64,000 nt of DNA, from positions 1 to 64,000 of the forward strand of contig JAVHLL010000012.1 in NCBI GenBank assembly GCA_031082155.1, written 5' to 3'. Origin of the DNA: Thermodesulfovibrionales bacterium. GTDB lineage: Bacteria > Nitrospirota > Thermodesulfovibrionia > Thermodesulfovibrionales > SM23-35. Positions 7,604 through 25,596 of the stretch are shown one piece after another. Made by a program: the position numbers and the translations under genes. The notes beneath the pieces are model-generated. The model saw only the letters and a program-made list of their open reading frames with translations, did not search any database and was not told the DNA's origin. How positions within the stretch are numbered: the first letter of the stretch is position 1; every line of letters begins with the position of its first letter.

Positions 7604-7649
7604 TTATGCCACCTTTCCTGTCAGTCTATAGCGAATGCTGCCTCAATAT

Positions 7650-7715
7650 TGTCATTCCCGCTTGTCGGGAATCCTTCTGTAAACGAAGAAAGATTCTGGC
7701 CTAGCCAGAATGACA
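7650..7715. repeat. REP/MITE-like inverted repeat
   Basis: tgtcattcccgcttgtcgggaatcctt ... agattctggcctagccagaatgaca. Confidence 0.75.
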
Positions 7716-7789
7716 GCATTAAAGATTCATAACCAATGGCTTCTGTATTTTAATACTTTTTTCATTAGAAAGATTTTATAATATTCCAG

Positions 7790-8914
7790 ATGAAAAAAAT
7801 AGAGTTTTTCCGTCATAACATTGACCAGGCAGACCGGGACCGTGTAGCTAAAGTCCTGCAATCGATATTTCTTACCACGGGGAGCTTTGTTCAGGAGTTT
7901 GAAGAGAAGTTCTCTCACTACCTTGGCCTGAGGTCTACCGTCGGCATGACAAGCTGTACTGCAGGCCTTCACCTTAGTCTCATCGCTCTTGGTATAGGCC
8001 CAGGCGATGAGGTCATCACAACACCAATGAGCTTTTGCGCAACAGCAAATGCCGTTCTCCATGCAAGTGCAAGGCCGGTATTGGTAGATGTGGAGGAAGA
8101 AACAGGCAACCTGAATGCAGAACTCCTGGAATCCAGATTGTCGAAAAGAACCAGGGCAATTATCCCTGTTCACCTTTACGGTCAGATGTGCGATATGAAG
8201 AAAATACGATCTTTGGCAAAAAAGAACAACCTGAAAATAATAGAGGACGCCGCTCATGCCATCGAAGCCGTCCGTGAGGGGATCGGCGTCGGACATCTTG
8301 CCGATACCGCCTGTTTCAGTTTTTATGCAACAAAAAACATCACTTCAGGGGAGGGAGGCGCTGTCAGCACAAATAACAGCAGAACCGCATCATTCTTGCG
8401 GATGCTCCGACTCCATGGCATCGACAAAGGAGCTGCCGAGAGATATACGAAAGGATACCGGCACTGGGATATGCCGGTACTTGGATGGAAATACAACATG
8501 GACAACATTCAGGCAGCCCTGCTTTTAGGTCAGCTTGAACGCATAGAAAGTCTGTGGAAAAAAAGGGACAGACTCTGGAGGTTCTATGAGGAAGAATTAA
8601 GGTCCCTCAAAGGGATCAGCGTGCTGAGAACGTTGCCAAAGACGAAACATGCCCGGCATTTATTTACCCTGCTTGTTCCACCAGCTAAAAGAGACTCCAT
8701 CCTACGGAATCTTCAGAAGAAAGGGATTGGCGTTGCCGTCAATTATCGTCCGATACATTTGCTGAAATTTTACCGTAAAACTTTCGGTTATAAAAATGGG
8801 GATTATCCTGTGGCTGAAGAGATCGGGAAGAGAACAATCTCGTTGCCGTTATACCCTTCGCTCAAAGAATCAGAGCTGAAGTACGTTGTGAAAGTGTTCA
8901 AGGAAAGTCTTTAA
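7790..8914 (+). CDS. DegT/DnrJ/EryC1/StrS-family aminotransferase
   Basis: GMTSCTAGLHLSLIALGIGPGDEVITTPMSFCATANAV; IIEDAAHAIEA; CFSFYATKNITSGEGGAV PLP-lysine region. Confidence 0.92.
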   Translation: MKKIEFFRHNIDQADRDRVAKVLQSIFLTTGSFVQEFEEKFSHYLGLRSTVGMTSCTAGLHLSLIALGIGPGDEVITTPMSFCATANAVLHASARPVLVDVEEETGNLNAELLESRLSKRTRAIIPVHLYGQMCDMKKIRSLAKKNNLKIIEDAAHAIEAVREGIGVGHLADTACFSFYATKNITSGEGGAVSTNNSRTASFLRMLRLHGIDKGAAERYTKGYRHWDMPVLGWKYNMDNIQAALLLGQLERIESLWKKRDRLWRFYEEELRSLKGISVLRTLPKTKHARHLFTLLVPPAKRDSILRNLQKKGIGVAVNYRPIHLLKFYRKTFGYKNGDYPVAEEIGKRTISLPLYPSLKESELKYVVKVFKESL

Positions 8915-9224
8915 TGATAGAGTATTCTTTTTAATAAATGAGGGAACATTTTTATCATAATGTTCAATAGGTTGCATTTTATCAAATGTTAAGTTATTCA
9001 TTAGTAATCTCCCCGCACCCCTCTTTAGAAAAGAGGGGTATTATTCCTCCCTTTGTAAAAGGGCCCCATGCAACCATTCCGTCCGAGTGCTTGATAATGC
9101 CTGATAGGGATTAGAGGAATGTTATAAAACAATGAAGTTATTATCTGGTGACTGTCAATAACATGTTTCTTTACCACAGAATTGGTAACTATTAGAAAAC
9201 TAATATCCCCCTTTTCTAAAGGGG

Positions 9225-9443
9225 GTGAGGGGGATTACTGAAATAATGCTGTTGTATAATCCTGACCTTAAACATATATCCAGACAGCTCAGGTCTCATA
9301 TGACAGACGCAGAAAATCTTTTATGGTCAAAACTGAGAAGAAAACATATGAAAAAACAGGGGTATAATATCTTGAGATTTTCAGATAGAGAACTCTTCAA
9401 AAACCTTCAAGGAGTATTGGAAAAAATGTATGCAAATTTGTAA
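9225..9443 (+). pseudogene. DUF559/Vsr-like endonuclease remnant with internal deletion
   Basis: 72 aa: N-term LLYNPDLKHISRQLRSHMTDAENLLWSKLRRK joined to C-term YNILRFSDRELFKNLQGVLEKMYANL; middle catalytic segment typical of the family is absent. Confidence 0.6.
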
Positions 9444-9480
9444 TCTCACTCAATCCATTTTTAGCAAATGGGTATTATTC

Positions 9481-9680
9481 AATGAATAACCCCACAGTCC
9501 CGAAAGCTTTCGGGGCGAGGTATCTAAAGATGTCATTCCGGCTTGTCCGGAATCTTTCTTTGCTTTTCAGTATTATTGTGTATACGCATTATCTCAGAAG
9601 GATTCCCGACAAGCGGGAATGACAGAATAAGGGATATAGTTACCCCGAAGCAAAGCTTCGAGGAATTCTTTTGATTAAAA
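9481..9680. repeat. Composite inverted-repeat (REP/MITE-like) element, copy 2
   Basis: cccgaaagctttcgggg, tgtcattccggcttgtccggaatctttc ... gattcccgacaagcgggaatgaca, ccccgaagcaaagcttcgagg. Confidence 0.8.
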
Positions 9681-9714
9681 AGCATAAAGAGCGAATCTTT
9701 CAAGGAGATTTATT

Positions 9715-10743
9715 ATGAAAACACTGTTAGTGACAGGCGGAGCCGGTTTTATCGGGAGCAACTTTGTCGACTATGTATTCAAAAAATATGATGATTACAG
9801 GATTATCGTTCTCGATATGCTCACCTATGCCGGTGACATAGACAACATCCCGCCGGAAGCAAGAAATTCAGACAGATTCGAGTTCTGGTACGGTGATGTC
9901 AATAACCTTGATCTTGTAAGCGATCTTGTCGGTCGTTCTGAAATTGTTGTACACTTTGCCGCTGAAACGCATGTGGCGAGATCGCTTTACTCGCAGAGGG
10001 TTTTTTTTGTTACTGATGTCCTTGGGACCCAGTCTGTAGCCAATGCCGTCTTGAAGCACTCTGCCAGGATAGAGAGGTTCATTCACATATCTACATCGGA
10101 AGTATACGGAACTGCTCTCTATGAACCTATGGACGAGGACCATCCCTTAAACCCCTCTACTCCTTATGCTGCAGCCAAAGCAGGAGCTGACCGGCTAGTA
10201 TATTCCTACATTGCTTCCCATGATATACCGGCCGTTATTATAAGACCGTTTAATAATTATGGCCCCAGACAGCATCTGGAAAAGCTCATCCCCCGTTTCA
10301 TAACCAGCTGTATCCTCGGAGAACCGTTGACTATCCACGGGGATGGCACAGCTGCAAGGGACTGGATTCATGCTATGGATACGGCAAGGGCAGTCGATCT
10401 TGCCATCCAGGCGCCGAAAGAAAGAGTAATCGGCCAAATCTTTAATATCGGGACGGGTCAAAGTTATACTGTTCTCGAAATTGCTCATATAATAACCAGG
10501 GCTTTCAATATGGAGAAGGGAAATTATTCTTTTATACCCGAGCGGTTCGGTCAGGTGCAGAAACATATAGCCGCCTCCGGAAAAGCAGAAGAAACCCTGG
10601 GTTTTTCTCCTGAAATAGCTTTTGATGTGGGATTACAAGAAACCATTGACTGGTATAAAGCACACCAGGCGCTCTGGTCTAAGCAACTGCCCCTGAGATC
10701 TGTTCCGATCAAGACAAAGGATGGGAGAGTGGTATGGTACTAA
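9715..10743 (+). CDS. NAD-dependent sugar epimerase/dehydratase (SDR)
   Basis: LLVTGGAGFIGSNFVDYV; VVHFAAETHVARS; STSEVYG..YAAAKAGADRLV; RPFNNYGPRQ. Confidence 0.92.
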   Translation: MKTLLVTGGAGFIGSNFVDYVFKKYDDYRIIVLDMLTYAGDIDNIPPEARNSDRFEFWYGDVNNLDLVSDLVGRSEIVVHFAAETHVARSLYSQRVFFVTDVLGTQSVANAVLKHSARIERFIHISTSEVYGTALYEPMDEDHPLNPSTPYAAAKAGADRLVYSYIASHDIPAVIIRPFNNYGPRQHLEKLIPRFITSCILGEPLTIHGDGTAARDWIHAMDTARAVDLAIQAPKERVIGQIFNIGTGQSYTVLEIAHIITRAFNMEKGNYSFIPERFGQVQKHIAASGKAEETLGFSPEIAFDVGLQETIDWYKAHQALWSKQLPLRSVPIKTKDGRVVWY

Positions 10744-10774
10744 CCATTATCCCGGCAAACAAACACTTTAAAAT

Positions 10775-10826
10775 CGTCATTGTCCGGCTTGACCGGACAA
10801 TCCAGTCCCGAAAGCTTTCGGGATTG
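10775..10826. repeat. Short hairpin repeats related to the composite element
   Basis: tgtccggcttgaccggaca followed by cccgaaagctttcggga. Confidence 0.6.
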
Positions 10827-10918
10827 AAAAAACTGGGTCCCCTCTTTGAGTCATAGACCGATCAAGTCGGGGAATAACAAACACCAGAGTTGCACGTGTT
10901 AATTTGCCGGGGTAAAAA

Positions 10919-11185
10919 TTAAGATTGAATATGCCATTGTTCTGCAAAATTCTCAGCCATTATGGGATATCCTTTTGCTCGAAGCACATTACAGAAAGAT
11001 TTCAATAAGGGTTTGTAATCCTCTTTTTGGGCTAATTGATTTTTATCAACCGCCTTTACGAATTTTTCTGCATTTTCATGTAAATTAAGATCGCTCTTAA
11101 TATTTTCTATAAGTTGGTTGATCTCTTCCGCTGTGGTAGCCGATTCATTCTTGGATAGTTCATTCATTTCCCTCTCCTTAATCAC
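10919..11185 (-). CDS. Small protein of unknown function (related to neighbour)
   Basis: 88 aa; C-term RAKGYPIMAENFAEQWHI similar to neighbour's MKGYPENAGEFAKRYNI; overlaps the preceding gene's stop. Confidence 0.55.
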   Translation of the reverse strand: MIKEREMNELSKNESATTAEEINQLIENIKSDLNLHENAEKFVKAVDKNQLAQKEDYKPLLKSFCNVLRAKGYPIMAENFAEQWHIQS

Positions 11186-11484
11186 ATATTCTTGGTGTTG
11201 ATATTATATCTTTTTGCAAATTCACCAGCATTTTCAGGATAACCTTTCATATAAAGCAACTCATAAAAATAATCCATTATATCTTTTATCTCTGAAATTT
11301 TATGCTCATCTATTAACTGAAAAATTTCTTTCGACATATATTCAGGGTCATTATACAAATTAAGAATCATGTATTCTATTCTTGTTATTATCATCACCTT
11401 ATCGGGCGGTAAAGATTTTTCGTCCATGTATTCTCCTTTCCCAAGTAGAATAATAAAAAAACAGCATCTTTTGCAATTCAACAA
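11182..11484 (-). CDS. Small protein of unknown function
   Basis: ORF (true start probably internal at MDEKSL); 4-nt overlap with next ORF suggests translational coupling. Confidence 0.5.
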   Translation of the reverse strand: MLNCKRCCFFIILLGKGEYMDEKSLPPDKVMIITRIEYMILNLYNDPEYMSKEIFQLIDEHKISEIKDIMDYFYELLYMKGYPENAGEFAKRYNINTKNM

Positions 11485-11688
11485 TCATAAGTATTTTCAG
11501 ACTTGAATCCTGGGACCTTTTTTCCAACGAAACAGGAAGTATCATAAATGTCAAAAATATATAATTTTATATAATAATATTTCTTAATTATTATGCTTCG
11601 CATTATGCGTAGAATACGTTATCGCTTTGCTTGCAGGAATTCTGCATTGAACCATATTTTTCCCTTGACAGAAAAATGGTATAAGTGT

Positions 11689-11716
11689 AAGCTTAAATTC
11701 GAAATTTAAGCTTTTT
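11689..11716 (+). terminator. Perfect 11-bp hairpin plus T-run in the leader of the cytochrome cluster (terminator/attenuator-like)
   Basis: AAGCTTAAATT-CGA-AATTTAAGCTT followed by TTTT. Confidence 0.55.
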
Positions 11717-11768
11717 TATGTCCGTCTAATCTTAATGAATTATTATTAATCTACAAAGGGGGTTCAGA

Positions 11769-12608
11769 TTGATGAGCGCATACCGGTTTTGGAAAAAGGG
11801 ACGATTCCACTTTCTCTGGCTGCTAAGTATACCGGCAATTTTTTTACTCCTGCTTTCTTTTTCAGGCTGGCATGAGAGTTTTGCGGGCGATGCCCCCCAA
11901 CTGTCGACTTCTGACTGCATTAAATGTCATACCGCGGTCGTCAGGACTGTCGAAAGTAAAGGAGCAAAACATAAGTCTGCAATCTCCTGCCTTGACTGCC
12001 ACAAAGGACATCCACCTATGGTAAGCAAGGACAAGATCATACCGCCATGCAGCACGTGTCATTCGGGGAAAAAGCATTACGAGATCAGTGGATGTAACAC
12101 CTGTCACTCTGATCCTCATGCCCCTCTTGACATGCAATTGGGGGCAAACATCACAGGTCCATGTCTTTCCTGCCACGAACCGCAGGGGCTTGAACTTAAG
12201 GAACACCCTTCCCGTCATTCAAAGCTTTTCTGCACAACCTGTCACAAACAACACAAGCAGGTGCCTCCGTGTCTCCAGTGCCACAAAGCACATACCTCCG
12301 CAATGGTAAATAAGGACTGCCTTGTCTGTCACCCTGCACATCAGCCGCGCACCATCACCTATGGCCCCGATATGCCATCGCAATTCTGTGCAGCATGCCA
12401 TCAGAAGATTGGAAACACCCTGACGGGCACTGAAACGAAACACTCCAAACTCGCCTGTGTATTCTGTCATAAAGAGCGACACAAGATGATTCCTCAATGT
12501 GAATCCTGTCATGGTTCGCCGCATCCCGCCTCAATGACAGCCAAGTTTAAGAACTGTAATGCGTGCCATATAAGTGCACATAGTTTAGGAGAGGAGGTTA
12601 AGAAATAA
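11769..12608 (+). CDS. Dodecaheme c-type cytochrome (12 CXXCH)
   Basis: CIKCH CLDCH CSTCH CNTCH CLSCH CTTCH CLQCH CLVCH CAACH CVFCH CESCH CNACH; N-terminal hydrophobic signal/anchor. Confidence 0.95.
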   Translation: MMSAYRFWKKGRFHFLWLLSIPAIFLLLLSFSGWHESFAGDAPQLSTSDCIKCHTAVVRTVESKGAKHKSAISCLDCHKGHPPMVSKDKIIPPCSTCHSGKKHYEISGCNTCHSDPHAPLDMQLGANITGPCLSCHEPQGLELKEHPSRHSKLFCTTCHKQHKQVPPCLQCHKAHTSAMVNKDCLVCHPAHQPRTITYGPDMPSQFCAACHQKIGNTLTGTETKHSKLACVFCHKERHKMIPQCESCHGSPHPASMTAKFKNCNACHISAHSLGEEVKK

Positions 12609-13516
12609 TGAAGACCAGGAAGAAAGTAATGGTGCTTTCCGGTATCCTCATGCTCGTTCTCGTCGCATTATTCTCGTGCGCTTCACAACAGGTAGCTCCG
12701 GAAAAGCCACAGGAAATGCAGGTGGCCCAGGCTGAACAACCGGCGGCACCACCACCGCCAAAGGAAGAAAAACCGAAGTCCCTTTATGACGCCGATGTGA
12801 AACCACTTGCACCTGCGGAATGCGGGCGCTGTCATTATTCGGTATTCAGCCAGATCAAGAATGAAGGGGGCAAGCACAAACTCGATTGTACGCAGTGCCA
12901 TACCAAGTATCACGCGTATAATCCGGTGAAACAGAACTGGGCAGAGATTATGCCTAAGTGTGAAACCTGCCACGGTGTATTCCACGGACAAAAATTTACC
13001 GCATGTACTCAGTGTCATGCTCCTCATGCCCCGAAGACACAGATTGCGGTGAATGCCGAAACAGCGAAAACATGTGGCGACTGCCATGGCAAAGTTGCCC
13101 AGACACTTCAGCAATCTCCAAGCAAGCACACCAAGGTAGCCTGTGCAACCTGCCATCATTCGAAACATGGACTGATACCCTCATGCATGACATGTCATAA
13201 ACCACATACGGCAAATCAGACCGACAAAGACTGTCTTGCGTGTCATCCGGCACACTCACCGCTGACCATCGCTTATCCAAAAGATACCGCGAACAGCGTG
13301 TGCGGAGCCTGCCACGGAGCTGTATACAAAAAGCTTGAGGCAAGCACCGGCAAACACAAGCAGGTCCCCTGCGCCCAGTGCCACACGAAACACAGACTGA
13401 TTCCCAAGTGTCAGGAATGTCACGGTCAGCCGCATGGCGAGGTAGTGCTGAAGAAATTCCCGGACTGCCTTGCATGTCATGTTGACGTTCATGATCTGCC
13501 TTCAAAATCAAAGTAA
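12608..13516 (+). CDS. Dodecaheme c-type cytochrome lipoprotein (12 CXXCH)
   Basis: LVALFSCAS lipobox-like; CGRCH CTQCH CETCH CTQCH CGDCH CATCH CMTCH CLACH CGACH CAQCH CQECH CLACH. Confidence 0.95.
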   Translation: MKTRKKVMVLSGILMLVLVALFSCASQQVAPEKPQEMQVAQAEQPAAPPPPKEEKPKSLYDADVKPLAPAECGRCHYSVFSQIKNEGGKHKLDCTQCHTKYHAYNPVKQNWAEIMPKCETCHGVFHGQKFTACTQCHAPHAPKTQIAVNAETAKTCGDCHGKVAQTLQQSPSKHTKVACATCHHSKHGLIPSCMTCHKPHTANQTDKDCLACHPAHSPLTIAYPKDTANSVCGACHGAVYKKLEASTGKHKQVPCAQCHTKHRLIPKCQECHGQPHGEVVLKKFPDCLACHVDVHDLPSKSK

Positions 13517-13521
13517 ATAAA

Positions 13522-13558
13522 AACACCCCCGGAAGTAGCCCTTCCGGGGGTGTTTTTT
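13522..13558 (+). terminator. Rho-independent terminator
   Basis: aacacccccggaagtagcccttccgggggtgttttttt. Confidence 0.92.
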
Positions 13559-13680
13559 TCTTCTTTCCCCTTCTTCATAACTTTTTCATATTTCTTTCAC
13601 AGGATCTCCATGTATACGCGTTAGAATGAAGATATTATCTTGACAATATTACAGGAAAAAACTAAAATATTTGAAAAATT

Positions 13681-14631
13681 ATGAGTAAACCCAGAATTCA
13701 ATTTCATATCCTCACTCTTGTAATCCTGACTTTCGCTCTATTCACTATCGGAGTCTTTTCCCTTGCTCCGCCCGTAAGCGCTGAAGAGAACCCGTGCCTC
13801 ACCTGCCATGCCAAAATAAAAGAACCCCAGTTTGTCCATGCAGCAGTAGCCTTAGGATGCCAGACTTGCCACAAAACGGTTGAAGGGAAAAGTCATCCGG
13901 CCGAGAAGCAAAGTATCGTGCTTATTCAGAATCTACCAGGGGTATGCTTTACCTGTCACACTCAGTCAAAGTTTCAGGAAAAAACAGTTCATTCTCCTGT
14001 CTTAAGCGGGACATGTACCGGATGCCATGATCCTCACAGTTCGAACGTGAAAAAACTCTTAACAAACAAAATGCCGGGCTTATGTTTCAACTGTCACAAG
14101 GAATCAGCTTTTAAAGGGAAATATGACCACGCCCCTGTGTATGGTGGTATGTGTCCTGCGTGTCATTCCCCTCATAGTTCTCCAAATCAGAAACTCCTTG
14201 TCAGCCCATCGCCGGAAGTCTGCTACACTTGCCATGAAAAATCCAAATTTAATAAAAAGTATGTGCACGCAGTGGTAAAACTAGGATGCGATTCCTGCCA
14301 TGATCCACACAAAGGTGATTATATCAACCTGCTTTTAAAACAACCTGTTGAGCTCTGTTTGAGTTGTCATCCGAACAAAAATGATGGCCGCCATATCGTG
14401 AATGTCCCTACTGAGAAAATTCATCCGATAAGCGGAGTAAAAGACCCGAGTGTTGCATGGACAAAAAAGATACCTGATCCCGATCGGCCGGGATATGAGA
14501 TAGAAGTGCCTGACCCTGACAAGCCCGGACAGGAATTAACCTGTTTCAGTTGCCATGATCCTCACAGTTCTGATTACCGCAAGCTTTTTCCGGTCAAAAA
14601 TATATGCAAAAAATGTCACGTATATTATTAG
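13681..14631 (+). CDS. Multiheme c-type cytochrome, doubled-CXXCH type (11 CXXCH)
   Basis: CLTCH CQTCH CFTCH CTGCH CFNCH CPACH CYTCH CDSCH CLSCH CFSCH CKKCH with CHDPHSS repeats; signal peptide. Confidence 0.95.
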   Translation: MSKPRIQFHILTLVILTFALFTIGVFSLAPPVSAEENPCLTCHAKIKEPQFVHAAVALGCQTCHKTVEGKSHPAEKQSIVLIQNLPGVCFTCHTQSKFQEKTVHSPVLSGTCTGCHDPHSSNVKKLLTNKMPGLCFNCHKESAFKGKYDHAPVYGGMCPACHSPHSSPNQKLLVSPSPEVCYTCHEKSKFNKKYVHAVVKLGCDSCHDPHKGDYINLLLKQPVELCLSCHPNKNDGRHIVNVPTEKIHPISGVKDPSVAWTKKIPDPDRPGYEIEVPDPDKPGQELTCFSCHDPHSSDYRKLFPVKNICKKCHVYY

Positions 14632-14673
14632 GCAGAAAAAACATTTTCTTATAAAGAGATTATTTATTTTTAG

Positions 14674-14772
14674 TGTCATTCCCGCTTGTTGGGAATCCTT
14701 CCGAATCTTATCGCTTTTGATTGGCGATTGGTTCGAGTTTTCAGGAAAGATTCTGGAAAAGCCAGAATGACA
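14674..14772. repeat. REP/MITE-like inverted repeat
   Basis: tgtcattcccgcttgttgggaatcctt ... aagattctggaaaagccagaatgaca. Confidence 0.75.
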
Positions 14773-14867
14773 GAAATGCAGAACATCTTTTTCTTTATTA
14801 CTGTAATATAAAACCGGGATTCAGTGATTGTCATTGTGACCCCTGAACTTGTTTCGGAGGAGGGAAT

Positions 14868-15908
14868 ATGATCTTTCAAGGTGTAACTCCCCAAAGAATT
14901 CTTTCTGTTCTCTGTCTTGCTCTTATGGCAACTTTATTTGCCTGCACAACCACCTCTCCTACAGTACCCGATAAACCTACAGGAGAATATATATGGCCCT
15001 CGCCGCCTGCTACTCCCCGTATCAAATGGATAACTCAATGGTCTAACCGATATGACTTTGGTAAACCGAGCGATGTGATGGAATTCTTAATCGGGAAGGA
15101 GCGCGTTGAGCGACTGAGACGGCCAAACGGCATTGTCACGGATACTGCAGGCAATGTGTATGTTGCAGATTCAGAGGCTCATGTTGTTTTTGTCTTTGAT
15201 CAGGAGAAAAAAGCCCTCAGATTTCTCGGCTTGGGAAGACTTGGCTTTCCAGTGGGAGTTGCAATAGACAACAAGAGAGGTATAATCTACGTATCGGACT
15301 CCAAGTTTGATAAAGTGTTCGGATTCGATAAAAATTCAGACGACGTCAAAGTAACATTTGGTGGACCGAGTGAATTTAAAAACCCGTCAGGAATGGTCTA
15401 TGATGAACAGAGAGAAAGGCTCTATATTGCTGATACGCAGAACCACCTCGTAAAGGCCTTTGACAGCGGAGGCCGCCACCTTTTCACAATCGGCAAGAGA
15501 GGGATGGAAGACGGAGAATTTAATTTCCCTAGTTATGTAGCATTAGATAAGACCGGGAAAATCTACGTTGTTGATTCGTTTAATTTTCGTATTCAAGTAT
15601 TTGACCCAGATGGCAAATACATCCGCAAATTTGGCAAACTCGGCGATGCTTCAGGGGCCTTTTCACGTCCGGCCGGCATCGGCGTGGATTCCGACGGCAA
15701 TATTCACATTGTTGACACCGCGTTTAATAACTTTCAGATTTTCAACATCGAAGGGCGATTATTGCTCTGGATCGGCACCACAGGGAAAAAACCGGGTGAG
15801 TTCTACCTTCCAACAGGCTTATACATCGATAACCAGGACAAAATATATGTATCGGATACTTATAATCAAAGGGTTCAGGTATTTCAATATTTAAAAACTC
15901 CGAAGTAA
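14868..15908 (+). CDS. NHL-repeat beta-propeller lipoprotein
   Basis: MATLFACTTT lipobox; repeated units such as FNFPSYVALDKTGKIYVVDSFNFRIQVFDPDGKYIRKFG. Confidence 0.9.
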   Translation: MIFQGVTPQRILSVLCLALMATLFACTTTSPTVPDKPTGEYIWPSPPATPRIKWITQWSNRYDFGKPSDVMEFLIGKERVERLRRPNGIVTDTAGNVYVADSEAHVVFVFDQEKKALRFLGLGRLGFPVGVAIDNKRGIIYVSDSKFDKVFGFDKNSDDVKVTFGGPSEFKNPSGMVYDEQRERLYIADTQNHLVKAFDSGGRHLFTIGKRGMEDGEFNFPSYVALDKTGKIYVVDSFNFRIQVFDPDGKYIRKFGKLGDASGAFSRPAGIGVDSDGNIHIVDTAFNNFQIFNIEGRLLLWIGTTGKKPGEFYLPTGLYIDNQDKIYVSDTYNQRVQVFQYLKTPK

Positions 15909-16109
15909 TATATTTTTTGCCTCTGAAAAAATACTCTTTCATGCGTTTGACTTATGTTTTTCCAAAGAGTCGAATTCCTTAAAAAAGCCTTTATTTTCAA
16001 AGTTTTATTATTTAAAATACTATTGATAACTTAATAAATTTTCTTATCAAGATATCTTGCGCAGTACACTGGTAATTCACAGGAATGTGATGGAGGAGGA
16101 TATTTTTGT

Positions 16110-17942
16110 GTGAATGCTAATGCGGTCACCAAATTAGTATTTCTGTTCATTATCGCTGCTTTCCTCATCCTTCTCCCCGGGATAGCCAATGCACAAATGA
16201 GAGCAGAATACGCGCAGAAATTCCGTCTTTTCGGTCTTGTAGAGCTGCGATACACCGACTTTCACGTTGAGACAACTTCTTCAGGAAGTACAATCTCAAG
16301 GGGTTCCACGACATTTCAACAGTATTACAAACTTGGTGCAGAGGGGTATATCTACCACCCCAGACTTGCGGTATTCACCGCCTCAATAGCCTATAATGAT
16401 ACAAAATTCAATCCGGAAAGAGGAATAAATGTAACCACCAAAGATTTTACCTACGATATTACCACAACATTTCTGCCTTACAGGCCTGTAGCATTCGATC
16501 TCTATGCAAGAAAAATTGACTATACATTCAATCTTGCCGGTGACCCGGTAGATACTTCATCAAATTTATATGGCGCCCGGCTGCGGATCAATAAACGGAG
16601 ATGGCCCGCCACGCGAGTCGAATACTATCACTGGGATTACGAACTCCTGCGTTTTGGAAATACTACAGATAAAGTAACGGAGGACCGGTTTACACTTGAC
16701 GTCCGTGGCAGATTAAATCCTTTTAGTACAAAATACCAGCTAATGGCTGAACATACCAGTATCAGCAAACCACATTTTAACGATAAAATATTGAACGCTC
16801 GAATAAATTTCTCCAGTATACTGAGACCTGGGATTTATTTCTACAACTGGCTTTCATATATAAAAAGTAATTACTACAAGAACTTCAGTTTTTCAACCAA
16901 TCTTTATTTTACCCCTTGGAAACGCTTTCAGCATAATTACTCATATGAATATATCAAGGCTGACAATGAATTACAGGGAAATCAGGAACTGGGGGCCGAA
17001 AGAAAAACAATAAAAACCAAGACTGAGACAATCCTCGGTTCATGGGGCTACCGATTTACCGAAAGGATGTCATCTGCTTTATCACTTCGGTATACACGAA
17101 ATGAGGAGAATGGAGTACGCTGGGATGCTGAAGGAATCTCAACAAGTATCGGATATGCCCGACCGATATCATGGATGAAGTTTGCATCTTATTATCGATT
17201 TTTGCTAAGACAAGACGAGAGAAGAGGAAACTTTCAGGAACATAATGTTGAAATCAATGTTTCAACAAGCAAATTCCGCTGGGGAATTCTTTACGGAATG
17301 TACGTGTTTAATTACATAGATGAGACCCAGAAATATATGCAAAAAACAGGTGCTGATGATTTTTTTGATGAAGATGCAGAAATGTTGGAGAAGACATCGG
17401 AAACTTTCACTCATTTATTTAGGCTGGGAGTTCGTGGAAGAATTCCGGGAAGAGAACTCGGGAGGGCATACTGGAATGTAGAGACTGAGTATTTTAAATC
17501 GGACACCAGCGGAAGAAGACCTGCGAGAGTATACGACGAGTATTTAGGGAGTTCAGGGGCAGCTTACGAAGATTATGATCTGCACTTCAGCCAATGGTCA
17601 GTCACGGGTAACCTGTCGTATCCTTTCAGAAGAGGCATTGTCCTTACTTTTAAGACCGGATATCGAATGGGAGAATCTAATGACAAGAAGAGAACATCCT
17701 ATTTCTATGAGAGTAGACTTGTTTATCCCATTTCCAGGAGATTAGGTATCGTATCATGGTGGAGGCATGTATTCACAGAACTGGAAGGGAGCCAGAACTC
17801 GGAAGAGAGACTCTTTCAGATTGAAGCTGATTACAAACTCGGGAGAACATATATAGTATTTGAGGGAAGAATTAGAAATATTCTCAATGATGGAGAAAGA
17901 TACGACAGGATACTGACATTGAGAGCCAGGAGATCATTTTGA
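16110..17942 (+). CDS. Probable outer-membrane beta-barrel protein of the cytochrome cluster
   Basis: GTG start; signal peptide LVFLFIIAAFLILLPGIANA; many alternating aromatic/polar stretches; C-terminal aromatic ...TLRARRSF. Confidence 0.75.
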   Translation: MNANAVTKLVFLFIIAAFLILLPGIANAQMRAEYAQKFRLFGLVELRYTDFHVETTSSGSTISRGSTTFQQYYKLGAEGYIYHPRLAVFTASIAYNDTKFNPERGINVTTKDFTYDITTTFLPYRPVAFDLYARKIDYTFNLAGDPVDTSSNLYGARLRINKRRWPATRVEYYHWDYELLRFGNTTDKVTEDRFTLDVRGRLNPFSTKYQLMAEHTSISKPHFNDKILNARINFSSILRPGIYFYNWLSYIKSNYYKNFSFSTNLYFTPWKRFQHNYSYEYIKADNELQGNQELGAERKTIKTKTETILGSWGYRFTERMSSALSLRYTRNEENGVRWDAEGISTSIGYARPISWMKFASYYRFLLRQDERRGNFQEHNVEINVSTSKFRWGILYGMYVFNYIDETQKYMQKTGADDFFDEDAEMLEKTSETFTHLFRLGVRGRIPGRELGRAYWNVETEYFKSDTSGRRPARVYDEYLGSSGAAYEDYDLHFSQWSVTGNLSYPFRRGIVLTFKTGYRMGESNDKKRTSYFYESRLVYPISRRLGIVSWWRHVFTELEGSQNSEERLFQIEADYKLGRTYIVFEGRIRNILNDGERYDRILTLRARRSF

Positions 17943-19006
17943 AATATTCTGTTCATAATGTATTTCTTATGCTCGCTCTCTGCTGTGTTTGTTCTTTGAG
18001 CTGTATGGCTACAGATTCGGTATCCCGAAATTTTCTTGTACATGGTGATAAGTTATTACTCCAGTGGCCACCATTCCCTCAGGCACCTCGAATTCTCTAC
18101 ATCGGGGAAATTATTAATCCGGCTGATATAGGTGATACCTTATCCTGGTTCTCAAGAACAATGAACAGCTTATTCGGAACGGACAACCGATCGCAGACCA
18201 TGGTAAGGCCTTATGGCGTTTTTTCCGATAAGAACAGAGTGTATATTACAGACCCTGGATTCGGGTGCGTTCATATTTTTGATACTCGGGAGAGATCATA
18301 TTTCTCATTTGAAGACGCAAATGAAGGATATCTTCTTGCTCCCATAGGCATTACCGTTGACAAAGATGGATATATATATGTAGCTGATTCTTTACTCAAG
18401 AAAATCCTTGTTTTTGATACGCAGGGGAAATATATACGTCAAATCGGCTCTGCCGATCTTTTACAACGACCGTCAGGCATTACTTTGAAGGATAATAATT
18501 TATACGTAGTTGATACCCTTGGACACAGAGTGCTGGTATTTTCAAAGGAAAACGGGAAACTATTATTCAGCTTTGGAAAGCATGGTTCCGACGATGGTAA
18601 CTTTAATTATCCGACCAATATTTTTGTGAGCAGACAAAATCTCATTTATGTCACAGACTCGATGAATTTCAGGGTGCAGATTTTCGACCAGAATGGGAAG
18701 TTCCTCTCGAATTTTGGGAAGCTGGGTGACGGCTCCGGGGATCTTTCAAAACCGAAGGGGATTGCTGTCGATTCCGATGGGAATATCTATCTGGTTGATG
18801 CCCACTTCGATAACGTTCAGATATTTAATGAAAAGGGAAATCTTTTGCTGGTGTTCGGCAGTTCAGGAAATAAGGAGGGTGAATTTGCTCTTCCTGCAGG
18901 TATCTTTATCGATGAAGATGATAGAATTTATGTAGCTGATTCATATAATCAAAGGATTCAGGTTTTCCAATATCTGAAAGAGAAGAAAGAAGTAATTGAA
19001 AAATGA
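17939..19006 (+). CDS. NHL-repeat beta-propeller lipoprotein (paralog of 14868-15908)
   Basis: TTG start overlapping the previous stop; CSLSC lipobox-like; repeats FNYPTNIFVSRQNLIYVTDSMNFRVQIFDQNGKFLSNFG. Confidence 0.88.
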   Translation: MKYSVHNVFLMLALCCVCSLSCMATDSVSRNFLVHGDKLLLQWPPFPQAPRILYIGEIINPADIGDTLSWFSRTMNSLFGTDNRSQTMVRPYGVFSDKNRVYITDPGFGCVHIFDTRERSYFSFEDANEGYLLAPIGITVDKDGYIYVADSLLKKILVFDTQGKYIRQIGSADLLQRPSGITLKDNNLYVVDTLGHRVLVFSKENGKLLFSFGKHGSDDGNFNYPTNIFVSRQNLIYVTDSMNFRVQIFDQNGKFLSNFGKLGDGSGDLSKPKGIAVDSDGNIYLVDAHFDNVQIFNEKGNLLLVFGSSGNKEGEFALPAGIFIDEDDRIYVADSYNQRIQVFQYLKEKKEVIEK

Positions 19007-19815
19007 AGAAACCACACCACATAATAAATAAAAGAGAATTAAAATTATTGCGAGTTTCGAGAATCATGAATTTATCAGGAATGGTCGCAAAATTAATAAA
19101 TTTCATCAAAGTATCTCCACTGATAGTATTCTTTCCTATCTTTGCATTGCTATTGTCTGATACTGTTCTCGCTGGGGTTAGCACAACAAAACATAATCTC
19201 TCGGTTACAGGTCCCGGTGTAGTAAAAGCAGTGAATCAAACCGAGGTTTGTACATTCTGTCATACCCCTCACAATGCATCACCCCAGGCACCGCTCTGGA
19301 ATCATGAGATCTCCAGTTTTGAGAACTATACTAATTATTACAGCGATACGCTCAAGGCATATCCCCCAGGTGGAGCTCCGCCGATCGACGGCTTCTCCAA
19401 ACTCTGCCTGAGTTGCCATGACGGCACCATTGGTGTCGGAGCTACAATTGGCACAAAAGGTACTATTGAGATGGATACCGTAGCAAATGTTATTGAATCC
19501 GGCAGACTCAGGCCGGGATCTCCCGGTTATCTTGGAACAGATCTGTCCGGAGGACACCCCATTTCTTTCATATTCGACGAAACCCTTGTAAGCCTGAGGA
19601 ATGCGGAGGAAGATATAATGCATCTGAACTGGCCGATACTCGACCAGGATGTGAAGCTCTATCCAACCCAGGGAGGATATGGTGTGCAGTGTACTTCCTG
19701 TCATGAACCACACGGAGGCAAGGGAGGGCCAGGCGAACCTCCTTTTTGGCGGAAGGCTGCATATGACGATGTATGCCTGGTATGTCACGATATATCTTCT
19801 CAAATTGGGCACTGA
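19003..19815 (+). CDS. Tetraheme c-type cytochrome (OmcE-like by composition)
   Basis: CTFCHTPHN, CLSCHDGTIG, CTSCHEPHGG, CLVCH; signal peptide; 4-nt overlap with upstream NHL gene. Confidence 0.88.
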   Translation: MKKPHHIINKRELKLLRVSRIMNLSGMVAKLINFIKVSPLIVFFPIFALLLSDTVLAGVSTTKHNLSVTGPGVVKAVNQTEVCTFCHTPHNASPQAPLWNHEISSFENYTNYYSDTLKAYPPGGAPPIDGFSKLCLSCHDGTIGVGATIGTKGTIEMDTVANVIESGRLRPGSPGYLGTDLSGGHPISFIFDETLVSLRNAEEDIMHLNWPILDQDVKLYPTQGGYGVQCTSCHEPHGGKGGPGEPPFWRKAAYDDVCLVCHDISSQIGH

Positions 19816-19849
19816 AAATGGCAATAGAGCTCATAACGGAATCTATACC

Positions 19850-20920
19850 ATGAAGAACAAAAATAAATTGTTCCTGGCATTTATCATATTTTTTCTCTGC
19901 CTCTATTGTTTGCCAGTTTTCCTCTATTCTCAGTCCTATAATGAAACTTCACACGGGAACAAGAAAAATCTTCCCGGCGGGTGCAGGACCTGCCATAAAG
20001 GACACGGTTTGTATAACACCCCTATGCTTGGAGAGTCACAAGAGAATTTCTGCCTCCGTTGTCACGGGGACAGCTTATATACTGCAAAACTAAGATCCCA
20101 GGGCCATATCTCGCCAGATGTAATCTTGATCAACGTTCAAAGAGAATTCACAAAAGCATATCACCATCCCATTGAGACATCAGGTTTGCATGAATACAGA
20201 GAAGATCTCCCCGAGACAATTCCCTCGGCACCGAGACATGTTGCATGTGTCGACTGTCACCATCATCACTATGTATCTCAAGGAAATAAACATGTGGGCA
20301 TTAAGGGAACAAACGTTGAAGGCTCAAAAATACCGAACATTATGAATGAATATGAACTCTGCTTTAATTGCCACTCATACAGCGCAAATCTTCCCTCTGA
20401 TCAGATGAATAAAGCGTCGCTTTTTAATCCATCAAATCCTTCTTATCATCCAATTGTGGCGCAGGGGAAAAACAATAATGTCCCAAGCCTCCAAATGCCT
20501 TTCACGGAGACGAGCATTATAAAATGTACTGACTGTCATAACAATGATGATATTTCAGGCCCAAAAGGTCCTCATGGTTCAAGTCATATGCATTTGCTCA
20601 AGAAAAACTTCAACAGTGATGACAGTGCGGAAGGGCTCTACCAATACGAGTTATGTTACAGTTGTCATATGAGAACGAGTATCCTGAATAATGAAAGCTT
20701 CCCGTACCATAAGCTTCATCTCACTGTTGTGGGTTCTTCATGCCGTACATGCCATAATCCTCACGGCAGCACACTCTATGCTCATATGATAGATCTGGAC
20801 GATATGTCGATAAGTCCATCGGACAGTGGTGCACTGGAATTTCGCGATTTAGGGCCCCGGGCAGGTGAGTGTTTTCTCTCATGCCACGGGAAAAACCATG
20901 GTCCGGCCAGATACCCTTAG
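19850..20920 (+). CDS. Multiheme c-type cytochrome: 7 CXXCH plus one CX3CH
   Basis: Start chosen at MKNKNKLFLAFIIFFLCL (signal peptide) rather than 19679; CRTCH CLRCH CVDCH CFNCH CTDCH CYSCH CRTCH and CFLSCH. Confidence 0.9.
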   Translation: MKNKNKLFLAFIIFFLCLYCLPVFLYSQSYNETSHGNKKNLPGGCRTCHKGHGLYNTPMLGESQENFCLRCHGDSLYTAKLRSQGHISPDVILINVQREFTKAYHHPIETSGLHEYREDLPETIPSAPRHVACVDCHHHHYVSQGNKHVGIKGTNVEGSKIPNIMNEYELCFNCHSYSANLPSDQMNKASLFNPSNPSYHPIVAQGKNNNVPSLQMPFTETSIIKCTDCHNNDDISGPKGPHGSSHMHLLKKNFNSDDSAEGLYQYELCYSCHMRTSILNNESFPYHKLHLTVVGSSCRTCHNPHGSTLYAHMIDLDDMSISPSDSGALEFRDLGPRAGECFLSCHGKNHGPARYP

Positions 20921-20985
20921 GCAAAATTAAATGACAATTTGCTGCAGGAGTAATTACGGTGGATTCTTGTCATTCATTATACGTA

Positions 20986-21438
20986 CTAACTTACCTCTTT
21001 TAAAATCAATGCGATAACCTCAGGGATTCTCTTTTCAATTTCAGGAGTCAATTTTTCGCTTGGCGTTCTGAGATCTTTAGGGACAACACCAATAAAAATC
21101 GCTTCCGGACATTTGCCGCTGATTCTTATTTGCTCAAGCATTTCGAATAAATGAAATTTATCAATATCAGTTCGACCATGCGGAGCAAGTGGCACTTCCT
21201 CAGGCAACAGCCGAACAACAGTACCCGGAGGACTATCCAATTGAAAAAAATCAATCACGATAAGTTTGTCTTTTCCTTCCACAAATGCCGGAACCATGCA
21301 TGCAGAACCACCAACCTCAAGAAATTCAACGTTTTCAGGAAGTTTTGTTTTTTCCAGGGCTTTTGCAACATGGAATCCAAAACCTGTATCACACGCATAC
21401 GGATATCCACAACATAAAATCAAAATATTTTTTTCCAT
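20986..21438 (-). CDS. Hydrogenase maturation protease-like protein (HybD/HycI superfamily)
   Basis: ILILCCGYPYACDTGFGFHVAKAL and KLIVIDFFQLDSPPGTV fit the fold; hyp genes nearby. Confidence 0.7.
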   Translation of the reverse strand: MEKNILILCCGYPYACDTGFGFHVAKALEKTKLPENVEFLEVGGSACMVPAFVEGKDKLIVIDFFQLDSPPGTVVRLLPEEVPLAPHGRTDIDKFHLFEMLEQIRISGKCPEAIFIGVVPKDLRTPSEKLTPEIEKRIPEVIALILKEVS

Positions 21439-21440
21439 AC

Positions 21441-22163
21441 TTATTCCCTTAAAGCCTCCTTTATAAGTTTGTTCATCTCTCTCACTGCCCTTTCCATGCC
21501 TATAAATACCGCACGTGAAATTATACTATGCCCTATATAAAGACCTCTGATTCCTTGTATGGAAGCAACCTGTGAAACATTAAAGTAATTCAGTCCGTGG
21601 CCTGCATTGACGAAAAACTCCAGATCGAGTGCCGTCTTTACTGCACTGACTACTCTTGTGAGTTCCTTTTCCTTATTTCTGGATTTTGCATCTGCATACA
21701 TCCCTGTATGGATCTCGACCATATCAGCGCCCGTCTGTTTCGCTATCTCAAGCGCATCTTTCTGAGGATTTATGAAAAGACTGACCGGAATCCCAATCCC
21801 GTGGATTCTCCTGATAGCCTCCTGAAGCGTCTTCTTGTGAGATTTCACCTCTAACCCGCCCTCTGTGGTGAGTTCCAGTCTCTTTTCAGGCACCAGGGTG
21901 ACCAAATCGGGTTTTGTCCTGATTGCAATACCGATCATTTCTTTTGTGGCCGCCATTTCGAGGTTCAGTTCATTCGGGACAACCTCTCTTAATATCTTCA
22001 GGTCCCTGTCCTGAATATGCCGCCTGTCCTCACGGAGATGAACCGTGATGCCATCAGCGCCCCCGAGGATTGCAAGCGTCGCAACCATGACCGGGTCAGG
22101 TTCGATCCCTCTCCTGGCCTGTCTCAAGGTTGCAACGTGGTCGATGTTAACACAAAGTAACAT
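21441..22163 (-). CDS. pdxJ: Pyridoxine 5'-phosphate synthase
   Basis: [55 protein letters not shown]. Confidence 0.96.
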
Positions 22164-22369
22164 CTACAACTCCTCCGACAAGTTAAAATTAGCAATTAAC
22201 ATTGAATAAGTCTGATTATCAATACAGCAAACTTAAGTAACCGGTCAGAGAGATCATTACCTCTATTGGAATTTAGACTACTCACTTTTCATTTATACTC
22301 TTGAATTGATAAATGTCTTTTCAACATTTTGCATTGTTAAATGATAAGTGCTAATTTTAACTTGTTTTT

Positions 22370-23371
22370 TTAACATATACGTGGCAACTGGTCTCCCGAC
22401 AGCATCTCGATAATTCTTGTTCCGCCGATGGCTGTTTTGAGAAGAACCATTCCGACCGGTGACTTTTGTACTTCTCCGATAAATCGGGCCTCTTTGCCGA
22501 GCGGATGCTTTTGCATCGTCTTGAGAACTAATTCGGCTACATCGCTACTTACTATGGCCGATAATATTCCTTCATTGGCGATATAGAGGGGATCAAGACC
22601 GAGGAGTTCGCACGCGCCCCTGACCCCCGGAGGGACCGGTATCAGATTCTCTTCGATCAGAATACAGTATCCTGAATCGGTTGCGATCTCTTTCAGAGTT
22701 GTCGCAAGTCCACCCCTGGTCGGGTCTCTTAACGCATGTATCTTCTTTGTCTTTTTCAGCATCTCCCGCACCAGTCCGTTCAGAGGTGCAGTATCACTAA
22801 TCACAGGGGGATTAAAACTCAGGCCATTCCTCTCTGCCATGATAGAAACACCGTGGTTGCCGATCGGGCCGCTGAGAATCACTTTATCGCCCGGTTTCAC
22901 TCTTGACGGAGAAATTTCTATCCCCTCATCAATGACCCCGACACCTGAGGTATTGATAAAAATACCGTCTGCTTTCCCCTTGTTTACCACTTTCGTATCT
23001 CCGGCCACTATCTTTACTCCTGCCGTTTCTGCCGCTTTCGACATGGCGGTGAGTATTTTCTTCAGATCATTGAGAGGGAATCCTTCTTCCAGGATAAGGC
23101 CTGAGGTTATATACAACGGTTTTGCACCAACCATTGCGAGGTCATTGACCGTTCCGTAGACAGCAAGTTCCCCGATGTTACCGCCCGGGAAAAATATCGG
23201 GGAAACAACATAGGAGTCTGTCGTGAACGCAATCTTTCCCTTAGTGATGCCCTTCAGTACAGCGGAATCGTTGAGGGACTTCATCCCAAATTTAGGCATA
23301 AAGTGTTCCCGGATAAGCTGATACATCAATTTCCCGCCACTTCCATGTCCAAGCAGAATACGATCTTCCAT
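22370..23371 (-). CDS. hypE: Hydrogenase expression/formation protein HypE
   Basis: LLGHGSGGKLMYQLI; TTDSYVVSPIFFPGGNIGELAVYGTVNDLAMVGAKP; C-terminal PRIC. Confidence 0.96.
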   Translation of the reverse strand: MEDRILLGHGSGGKLMYQLIREHFMPKFGMKSLNDSAVLKGITKGKIAFTTDSYVVSPIFFPGGNIGELAVYGTVNDLAMVGAKPLYITSGLILEEGFPLNDLKKILTAMSKAAETAGVKIVAGDTKVVNKGKADGIFINTSGVGVIDEGIEISPSRVKPGDKVILSGPIGNHGVSIMAERNGLSFNPPVISDTAPLNGLVREMLKKTKKIHALRDPTRGGLATTLKEIATDSGYCILIEENLIPVPPGVRGACELLGLDPLYIANEGILSAIVSSDVAELVLKTMQKHPLGKEARFIGEVQKSPVGMVLLKTAIGGTRIIEMLSGDQLPRIC

Positions 23372-23437
23372 CGTGTACCCTCCTTTATTGACCTTTTATT
23401 GTAGCATATCCTCAGGATTCCAGGCTTCCAGGTTTAA

Positions 23438-23620
23438 TCAAATGATTCCTCGATGCTCTGCATCGGGGTTGATGTTTTCCTTATTCTGTCATTCCCGCTT
23501 GTCGGGAATCCTTCCAAGGTAATGTGTGATACAGAGCAATATAGGAAAACAAAAAGAAAGCTTCCGGACGAGCCGGAATGACATCCTTGATACCTCGTCC
23601 CGAAATCCTTCGGGACTGCA
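23438..23620. repeat. Composite inverted-repeat element, copy 3 (opposite orientation)
   Basis: aatcaaatgattcctcgatgctctgcatcgggg; ttattctgtcattcccgcttgtcgggaatcctt; ccggaatgacatccttgatacctcgtcccgaaatccttcggga. Confidence 0.8.
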
Positions 23621-23673
23621 GACGATCTTATTATTTTTTCTCTCGACACCTTAAACCTTTTAACCTTTTTTTT

Positions 23674-24306
23674 CTACGGCGGAATCCATATCTCAGAGAA
23701 ATAAAGCGGGAGTTCAGCAGCGCACTCAGGCCCTACCCTCACAGTCCATCCTGTTTCTTTCCTGATATCTTCCTGAATCTCGGCGGCAAGTCCGGGGATG
23801 ACCATCAGTTTCGTAAGGTTTTTTTCACCTAATCCTGATATCTGTATAGCCCTGGTAATCCTCGCTGCCGTGAAAGTTTTATAAATCATGGCCATGTCTA
23901 TGGTATTGCCGTCTGTATCAGTGAAGACAACATAAAAGGGGCAGAGGGTAGTTCCCAGGACCGTGAGCAGGACATCCTGGGTGAACTTATTGTTTCCCGT
24001 GATGAGTACCATGGATTGTGCGTCCGGCTGATTCAGTTCGACCAGTCCTGTAGGGCCGGGTCTCGGATGCGTGAGGAGGGGGACCTGGGGCCATAAATCC
24101 TTTATCATGCCGACGGCTTCGAACGCATAGGCATGATTTCTTTTTAGAAAAATACATTCGTCCAGCGCACGGTTGTCTTTTTGGAGGGCGTCGAGGAACT
24201 CTTTACAGGAAGAATACCCGCATTCTCCGCTGCACCCTTCCGGGAGATACTTCATAAAATCAATTTTGTCGAGATACAGATCAGCAGTCGCCAATGGGTT
24301 TATCAA
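23674..24306 (-). CDS. Miniature AcsC/CFeSP gamma-like protein: [4Fe-4S] domain joined to AcsC C-terminal-like domain
   Basis: MKYLPEGCSGECGYSSCKEFLDALQKDNRALDEC; VLITGNNKFTQDVLL..FYVVFTDTDGNTIDMAMIYKTFTAARI..MVIPGLAAEIQEDIRKETGWTVRVGPECAAELPLYF; only 210 aa. Confidence 0.7.
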   Translation of the reverse strand: MINPLATADLYLDKIDFMKYLPEGCSGECGYSSCKEFLDALQKDNRALDECIFLKRNHAYAFEAVGMIKDLWPQVPLLTHPRPGPTGLVELNQPDAQSMVLITGNNKFTQDVLLTVLGTTLCPFYVVFTDTDGNTIDMAMIYKTFTAARITRAIQISGLGEKNLTKLMVIPGLAAEIQEDIRKETGWTVRVGPECAAELPLYFSEIWIPP

Positions 24307-24347
24307 ACAGGCTCAGGAAATTCTGTGCCATAATAATTGCCTGGTTC

Positions 24348-25412
24348 CTATCGCACGACTCCCGAATACTTATAATACGCTGCGCAGCTTCCCTCGGTGC
24401 TCACCATGCATGCACCGACCGGGTGTTCCGGGGTGCACGCCTTTCCGAAAAGCCTGCAGTCTGTCGGTATCTTGACCCCCGTCAAAACCTGTCCGCACTG
24501 ACAGCCTTTCGGTTCCGGCGTGTCCGGTATATCAAGATTGAACACGTTGCTGACATCGAACCGGCTGGCTTGCTTTCTCAGTTTTAGTCCGCTTCCGGGT
24601 ATCACTCCGATCCCTCTCCAGTTGGCGTCACAGGGCTCGAAAAATTCATTGATCAGCGACATCGCTTTCGGGTTGCCCTCTTTTCTGACGACCTTGGTAT
24701 ACTGGATTTCAACTGCTGCCCTGCCTGATGCAATCTGATCGAGAAGCATCAGGATTGCAGTGAGAATATCCTCCGCATCAAACCCGGTCACTACTGAAGG
24801 AATTGAATAATCAGATGCGATGAATTCATATGGTTCAGTTCCGATGATTGTGCTCACGTGCCCAGGGAGGATAAACCCGTCGATCTTCAGATCAGGAGAA
24901 TCGAGCAAGGCCTTGAGCGCCGGCGGCACAACCTTGTGGGCGGAATAAATATAAAAATTGTCAATCCCTGACCGTGACGCTTCAAAAAGCGTCCCGGCAA
25001 TAGAGGGTGATGTTGTCTCAAAACCGGTGGCAAAGAAGACGATATTCTTGTCTTTGTTCGCTGCAGCCATCTTCAGCGCATCCATTGGAGAATAGACGAT
25101 GCTAATCTTGGCGCCTTCTGCCTGTGCGTGAAAAAGCGACTTCTTGCTCCCAGGGACCCTCATCATATCACCGAATGTGGTAAGGATGGTTCCGTCAAGA
25201 TTCGCAATCGCTATTGCAGCATCAACATCCTTAATCGGAGTTACACAGACAGGACATCCCGGACCACTCAGGAGGCTGATATCCTTTGGAATGACCCCTC
25301 TGATGCCGTGTCTGAAGATTGCCACGGTATGCGTTCCGCAGACTTCCATAAACTTTACCGGACGGCCGATTCTCTCCGTCAGTTTCTTTATTGCGGCTGC
25401 TATTTTCTTCAT
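24348..25412 (-). CDS. hypD: Hydrogenase formation protein HypD
   Basis: FMEVCGTHTVAIFRHGIRGVIPKDISLLSGPGCPVCVTP; FATGFETTSPS; YTKVVRKEGNPKA. Confidence 0.96.
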   Translation of the reverse strand: MKKIAAAIKKLTERIGRPVKFMEVCGTHTVAIFRHGIRGVIPKDISLLSGPGCPVCVTPIKDVDAAIAIANLDGTILTTFGDMMRVPGSKKSLFHAQAEGAKISIVYSPMDALKMAAANKDKNIVFFATGFETTSPSIAGTLFEASRSGIDNFYIYSAHKVVPPALKALLDSPDLKIDGFILPGHVSTIIGTEPYEFIASDYSIPSVVTGFDAEDILTAILMLLDQIASGRAAVEIQYTKVVRKEGNPKAMSLINEFFEPCDANWRGIGVIPGSGLKLRKQASRFDVSNVFNLDIPDTPEPKGCQCGQVLTGVKIPTDCRLFGKACTPEHPVGACMVSTEGSCAAYYKYSGVVR

Positions 25413-25436
25413 TCAAGTCTCCTTCAAATGTTATTT

Positions 25437-25540
25437 AGTGTCTGTTTATAAACTATCAAGAAAATCAAAAAACTGTCATTCCGGCTTGTCCGGAATCTTT
25501 CCGGAAGGATTCCCGACGCCCTTTGCTTGCGGGAATGACA
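25437..25540. repeat. REP/MITE-like element between hypF and hypD with partial outer repeat
   Basis: agtgtctgtttataaa ... tgtcattccggcttgtccggaatcttt ... gcgggaatgaca. Confidence 0.7.
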
Positions 25541-25596
25541 ACAACGCGACATTATTTATGACGCTATGTTTAGAATTTCGGATCTAGTATTTGTCT

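Follow-up and report, generated by a model that had tools for sequence, protein, structure and literature searches.

The Uet complex of Candidatus Tenderia and Gallionella (Eddie et al. 2022, as cited in PMC10734462) comprises the undecaheme cytochrome UetJ, the tetraheme cytochrome UetA, the peptidyl-prolyl isomerase (PPIase) UetB, the porin UetC, the triheme cytochromes UetDEG and the NHL proteins UetHI. In both OmcE and OmcS, the heme at the subunit interface is ligated by a His of the neighbouring subunit (PMC9473688, PMC12954529), and a review describes the anchoring and charging of cytochrome nanowires at the outer membrane as unresolved (PMC12307469). In this study, we analysed eight co-directional genes at 11769-20920 of a 64,000-nt stretch of DNA (positions 1-64,000 of contig JAVHLL010000012.1, assembly GCA_031082155.1; the window) from a Thermodesulfovibrionales bacterium (Nitrospirota). 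The genes are called here c12, lip12, c11, NHL1, barrel, NHL2, tet (tetraheme) and c8 (heptaheme plus CX3CH), in this order (Table 1). It seems probable, at roughly 0.6 for the explanation as a whole, that the cluster encodes a Uet-type outer-membrane electron-transfer complex with a path from c11 via the barrel to tet and c8, and that the unit at 13681-20920 is a Uet-related Nitrospirota variant, not Uet proper.

Correspondence with the Uet cluster

The window cluster shares with Uet the two NHL proteins (UetHI), the barrel (UetC) and tetraheme and heptaheme domains that appear to correspond to the halves of UetJ, and NHL followed by UetJ is a relative order also found in the window. In the gammaproteobacterial locus L112 the order is tetraheme, PPIase, barrel, trihemes, two NHL genes and an 11-heme gene, which matches the order UetA, B, C, D-G, H-I, J described in PMC10734462; the profile of the window barrel has a match in this locus at E<=1e-5. 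In most phyla, the last gene encodes one protein with 10-11 CXXCH motifs, composed of a four-heme OmcE-like domain, a linker and a c8-homologous domain, a median of 37 residues separating the fourth and fifth heme motifs. In these single proteins, including the one in the UetJ position of L112 and L108, the N-terminal part is homologous to tet and the C-terminal part to c8. Judged by this homology, tet and c8 appear to be the split halves of an undecaheme UetJ, encoded in the window by two genes. Unlike Uet, the cluster at 11769-20920 has no UetDEG trihemes; the MtrA-like c11 and a pair of 12-heme cytochromes are present instead.

A preliminary description of this DNA had proposed an outer-membrane electron-transfer system and had taken the gene order to be an unrecognised, possibly distinct conduit. 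The system itself is well supported by the MtrA-like c11, the 28-strand barrel and the surface-type cytochromes. The novelty is not, since the arrangement corresponds to the published Uet cluster (PMC10734462), with UetJ split and different periplasmic cytochromes. The description had also counted four hemes in tet correctly while overlooking its kinship to the OmcE nanowire subunit. Overall, its observations were mostly right and its interpretation partly right.

Several points weigh against a Uet-type conduit. The class A tetraheme protein of the UetA type (the classes are defined below) is not in the window cluster but on another contig (C15) of the same genome, and a PPIase corresponding to UetB was not found within 11769-20920. 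Two features that define Uet were looked for and found lacking, for which reason we write Uet-related rather than Uet. The match to Uet was made through gammaproteobacterial metagenome-assembled genomes, by gene composition, gene order and homology of domains, not by direct alignment to the Candidatus Tenderia proteins. The AlphaFold2 model of c8 is poor (predicted local distance difference test, pLDDT, 56), and tet and c8 could not be linked structurally on its basis. Finally, sequence alone does not reveal whether the barrel serves as a conduit or for export.

All loci of the window's family that lie on intact and long enough contigs retain the order c11-NHL1-barrel-NHL2-tet-c8, NHL1 being collinear with its neighbours in relatives. 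The preliminary description had named a non-barrel prediction and a lack of conserved order as outcomes that would speak against it, and neither arose. In relatives of the same taxonomic order, a PPIase of the SurA/PpiC type and additional OmcE-like genes accompany the cluster, and the heptaheme gene is present in 56 of the 177 genomes of that order. Used to scan named genomes, the tetraheme alignment gave 80 loci in more than ten phyla. We surveyed the 58 loci in which a tet/c8 unit is preceded by over 7 kb of sequence; as they were recruited via the tetraheme domain, the counts describe the company of this domain, not abundance. An NHL gene lies immediately upstream of the tet unit in 57 of them, two NHL genes occur in 44, a barrel-like open reading frame (ORF) in 44-52, a free OmcE-like gene in 43, a c11-like cytochrome in 32 and a PPIase in 15.

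Some loci depart from the common pattern. One relative carries a gene for a 620-aa CARDB and beta-helix protein between NHL2 and the tetraheme gene (L030:4588-6450), and in L060 a 615-aa ORF separates the tetraheme from the heptaheme gene. In two genomes of the same taxonomic order (G026 and G038), the heptaheme domain appears to occur at two loci, as a short version of the split type and as a long-frame version of the fused type. In the Geobacteraceae metagenome-assembled genome L090, the genes are arranged as tet-NHL-5-heme-barrel-NHL-11-heme. An NHL-tetraheme pair is found on a contig of an archaeal (Desulfurococcales) metagenome-assembled genome (L096), as a result of either real transfer or binning error.

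The last gene of the window cluster had been described as a cytochrome with eight heme sites, and it does contain seven CXXCH motifs and a nearly invariant CX3CH. The start of c8 is most likely at 19850, because homologues align from about that position; the first ATG of the ORF, at 19679, falls within the tet gene. The CX3CH motif is CFLSCH (region 20850-20910 of the window), and its two Cys, its His and another His close by hardly vary among 23 homologues. It comes after the last CXXCH in 25 of the 26 split homologues and 45 of the 74 fused ones, and none was found in the tetraheme, NHL or barrel proteins. Proteins of the "undecaheme" type may therefore have a twelfth heme, uncounted so far.

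Two classes of OmcE-related tetraheme domains

Tet matches the OmcE filament protein of Geobacter sulfurreducens (7TFS) with an E-value of 2.1e-24; a further tetraheme cytochrome among the deposited structures (9yuq, an entry of 16 chains with one sequence) is matched with 1.3e-17. All eight heme-ligand His, those of the four CXXCH motifs and four distal ones, are kept in tet. We distinguish class A, free OmcE-like proteins including OmcE and 9yuq, from class B, OmcE-like domains fused to or paired with a heptaheme domain; the eight ligands are conserved in both. In a tree of 156 tetraheme domains, the separation of the two classes holds in 154, the exceptions being two units, one interrupted by an inserted gene and one located at a contig end. 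A more careful tree of 65 rows separates all 65, with support of 100/99, and placing the window tet with the OmcE-like class A is rejected (approximately unbiased test, p-AU 7e-38). By homology and tree position, tet is thus an OmcE homologue of a separate class B clade and would correspond to the N-terminal half of an undecaheme protein of the UetJ type; unlike OmcE, it is partnered with a heptaheme domain.

At first we took tet for an OmcE filament subunit encoded in a nanowire operon, a reading that the tree led us to reject. We regard it as unlikely that tet on its own forms the polymer of an OmcE-like nanowire and that the cluster makes up a nanowire operon complete in itself. Its homology to OmcE, a published filament, and to 9yuq and the conservation of all the ligands would agree with polymerisation, as would the protein end, which in the split form lies 2-13 residues past the last heme, similar to free OmcE-like proteins (median 2). 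Against this stand the class B position, in which tet does not group with known filament subunits, the covalent fusion of class B domains elsewhere to a 7-8-heme domain, and a separate class A gene in the same genome. That gene (G000:C15:5477-6196, minus strand, locus L131) matches 7tfs with an E-value of 2.5e-18, has no NHL or barrel neighbours, and encodes a candidate filament subunit of the source organism.

The class A/class B division may be the part of this study that is new to specialists: no statement of it was found in the literature searched, to which the original publications on Uet, OmcE and osc did not belong. Through this division, OmcE filaments and the Uet porin-cytochrome cluster are connected at the sequence level, and many OmcE-like nanowire gene clusters, in more than ten phyla, also encode a class B domain, a second OmcE-like domain that would have evolved separately, and a heptaheme/octaheme domain beside NHL lipoproteins and a barrel. 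We tentatively suggest that the class B unit could be a dedicated base, both nucleator and electrical socket, that ties an OmcE-like polymer to the outer membrane and is split in the window's family; other explanations of the unit together appear likelier. Since OmcE and OmcS share ligation by a His of the adjoining subunit, a fixed OmcE-like domain is plausible as the first or last rung. The division gives one candidate protein for the junction between nanowire and outer membrane. Because the window's family encodes this candidate as two genes, its tetraheme and octaheme halves could be produced and mixed independently.

The barrel, its putative periplasmic partners and a proposed electron path

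The AlphaFold2 model of the barrel, made with 16 sequences, has 28 strands (pLDDT 88; predicted TM-score, pTM, 0.71), in agreement with the outer-membrane barrel assumed in the preliminary description. Foldseek matched the model to large outer-membrane barrels, and MtrB (6r2q_B) had the top TM-score, 0.41, among the 50 matches listed. The barrel matches no Pfam or NCBIfam family, hence no MtrB/PioB family assignment can be made. An initial scan of the genome contigs with the barrel sequence alone gave no match, because the barrel sequence diverges quickly.

C11 matches MtrA (6r2q_A) with an E-value of 1.7e-14; chain A of 6R2Q is MtrA, the molecule name in the structure library being erroneous. 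It also matches the DmsE/GSU2203 decaheme families (TIGR03508, 1.2e-32; GSU2203 family, 2e-25), in both cases below the family cut-offs. C11 is described here as an MtrA-like, presumably periplasmic cytochrome and candidate wire for the barrel. An MtrA-like multiheme cytochrome and a large barrel are what the window cluster shares with MtrCAB (6R2Q); it differs in a barrel predicted with 28 strands against 26 and in its additional NHL lipoproteins. The shared parts could also be read as a standard porin-cytochrome conduit of the MtrCAB type whose other neighbours are there by chance. We consider this very improbable: the barrel resembles MtrB solely at the level of the fold, lacking any match to its family; no MtrC/OmcA-type surface cytochrome was found above the Pfam or NCBIfam family cut-off among the cluster proteins; and across phyla it is the NHL proteins and tet/c8 that are conserved most strongly as partners.

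C12 is probably periplasmic, judging from its sequence. C12 and lip12 share 36% identity across 247 aa, and their hemes are spaced alike; on this evidence the pair, one soluble protein and one lipoprotein, is a tandem duplication. C12 apparently consists of three 4-heme repeats, and both 12-heme paralogues of four-heme repeats. Homologues of lip12 occur in 14 of the 61 related genomes, some of them distant from the barrel cluster or without a barrel match. The N-termini of lip12, NHL1 and NHL2 read as lipobox-like, and with the Pfam NHL matches this bears out the two NHL propeller lipoproteins of the preliminary description.

The Uet-type reading may imply the following path. C12, lip12 and other periplasmic cytochromes would pass electrons to c11, and c11 would pass them through or to the barrel. 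The tet-c8 pair, held at the cell surface by the two NHL propeller lipoproteins, would receive them; the sequence does not give the direction of flow. At this end, tet and c8 might act as a terminal reductase or oxidase in direct contact with a mineral. They might instead be the base at which an OmcE-like filament, the class A protein of contig C15, docks, possibly via the same head-to-tail heme contact as in OmcE.

A serious rival, which we rate well below even odds, is that the barrel is mainly an export or assembly channel for secreted cytochromes, that the NHL propellers shape or anchor a filament, and that c11 is a mere periplasmic carrier. In the osc cluster, OscH has been proposed as a folding factor, OscE,F,G as secretion factors and OscD as a morphology factor accompanying the OmcS nanowire (PMC13194489). 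The propeller, the barrel and, in related clusters, the SurA/PpiC-type PPIase adjoining the barrel parallel this arrangement, and the PPIase recurs in the survey loci at the frequency given above. However, the window cluster is without a PPIase, the MtrA-like c11 lies two genes from the barrel in the window's family, and the 28-strand barrel resembles the conduit barrel MtrB.

The osc (OmcS companion) and OetABI clusters likewise combine a beta-propeller and a barrel, and in the window's relatives a PPIase, with a filament-type cytochrome. Their cytochromes are the hexaheme OmcS and the 16/26-heme Oet proteins, none of which is in the window cluster. Membership of the window cluster in the Oet/osc group was rejected; OmcS-like and 16/26-heme cytochromes and a PPIase are located on contig C13 of the source genome. 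This second cytochrome cluster (G000:C13, about 7500-23200; L133 4072-17999 and L144 451-5625) encodes a 26-heme, a 16-heme and two 6-heme proteins (one weakly OmcS-like, E 9e-4), a double PPIase-domain protein, a CsgG-like protein, a 776-aa possible barrel and a lactonase/YncE-type propeller. It holds the sole other NHL protein of the genome and looks like an Oet/osc-type nanowire cluster.

Layout of the locus and neighbouring genes

The five heme proteins are the only ORFs of >=150 aa in the window with at least two CXXCH motifs. Residue-shuffled versions of them contain a mean of <=0.2 CXXCH, with a maximum of 3; the motif counts and this test agree with the eight co-directional genes and five multiheme cytochromes first described.

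Table 1. Features at 11769-20920 of the window, with CXXCH counts and the distance to the next gene (negative values, overlap).
Feature	Position	Strand	CXXCH	Basis	Distance to next gene (nt)
c12, 12-heme cytochrome	11769..12608	+	12	Sec signal; Pfam cytochrome c3/c7	-1
lip12, 12-heme lipoprotein cytochrome	12608..13516	+	12	lipobox LFSC	164
Strong terminator-like hairpin closing the c12-lip12 unit	13519..13557	+		17-bp stem, 9 GC pairs	
Promoter-like site of second unit (prediction)	13640..13668	+		11/12 consensus matches	
c11, 11-heme MtrA/DmsE/OmcK-like cytochrome	13681..14631	+	11	6r2q_A match	236
NHL1, NHL beta-propeller lipoprotein	14868..15908	+	0	Pfam NHL E 2.6e-39; lipobox LFAC	201
Barrel, predicted outer-membrane beta-barrel, UetC-like position	16110..17942	+	0	AlphaFold2, 28 strands; C-terminal Phe	-4
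NHL2, NHL beta-propeller lipoprotein	17939..19006	+	0	Pfam NHL E 2.1e-30; lipobox SLSC	-4
tet, OmcE-related tetraheme cytochrome, class B	19003..19815	+	4	7tfs match	34
c8, heptaheme cytochrome with extra conserved CX3CH (8 sites)	19850..20920	+	7	CX3CH	

Four-nucleotide overlaps had been ascribed to the last five genes. They hold for the barrel/NHL2 and NHL2/tet junctions, but gaps separate NHL1 from the barrel and tet from c8. Similarly, the eight genes had been treated as a single cluster; they are co-directional, but the terminator-like hairpin 3' of lip12 and the near-consensus promoter-like site before c11 part c12 and lip12 from the other six, and c12-lip12 is therefore probably a transcription unit of its own.

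Upstream of the cluster (window 6650-10743) lie genes for a sugar aminotransferase, a glycosyltransferase and a nucleotide-sugar dehydratase. OmcE and OmcS are reported to be glycosylated (PMC9473688), and these sugar genes could be connected with cytochrome glycosylation or simply lie nearby. Downstream (window 20986-28053) are genes for a hydrogenase maturation protease, HypE, HypD and HypF and a fragment resembling the gamma subunit of carbon monoxide dehydrogenase/acetyl-CoA synthase (CODH/ACS).

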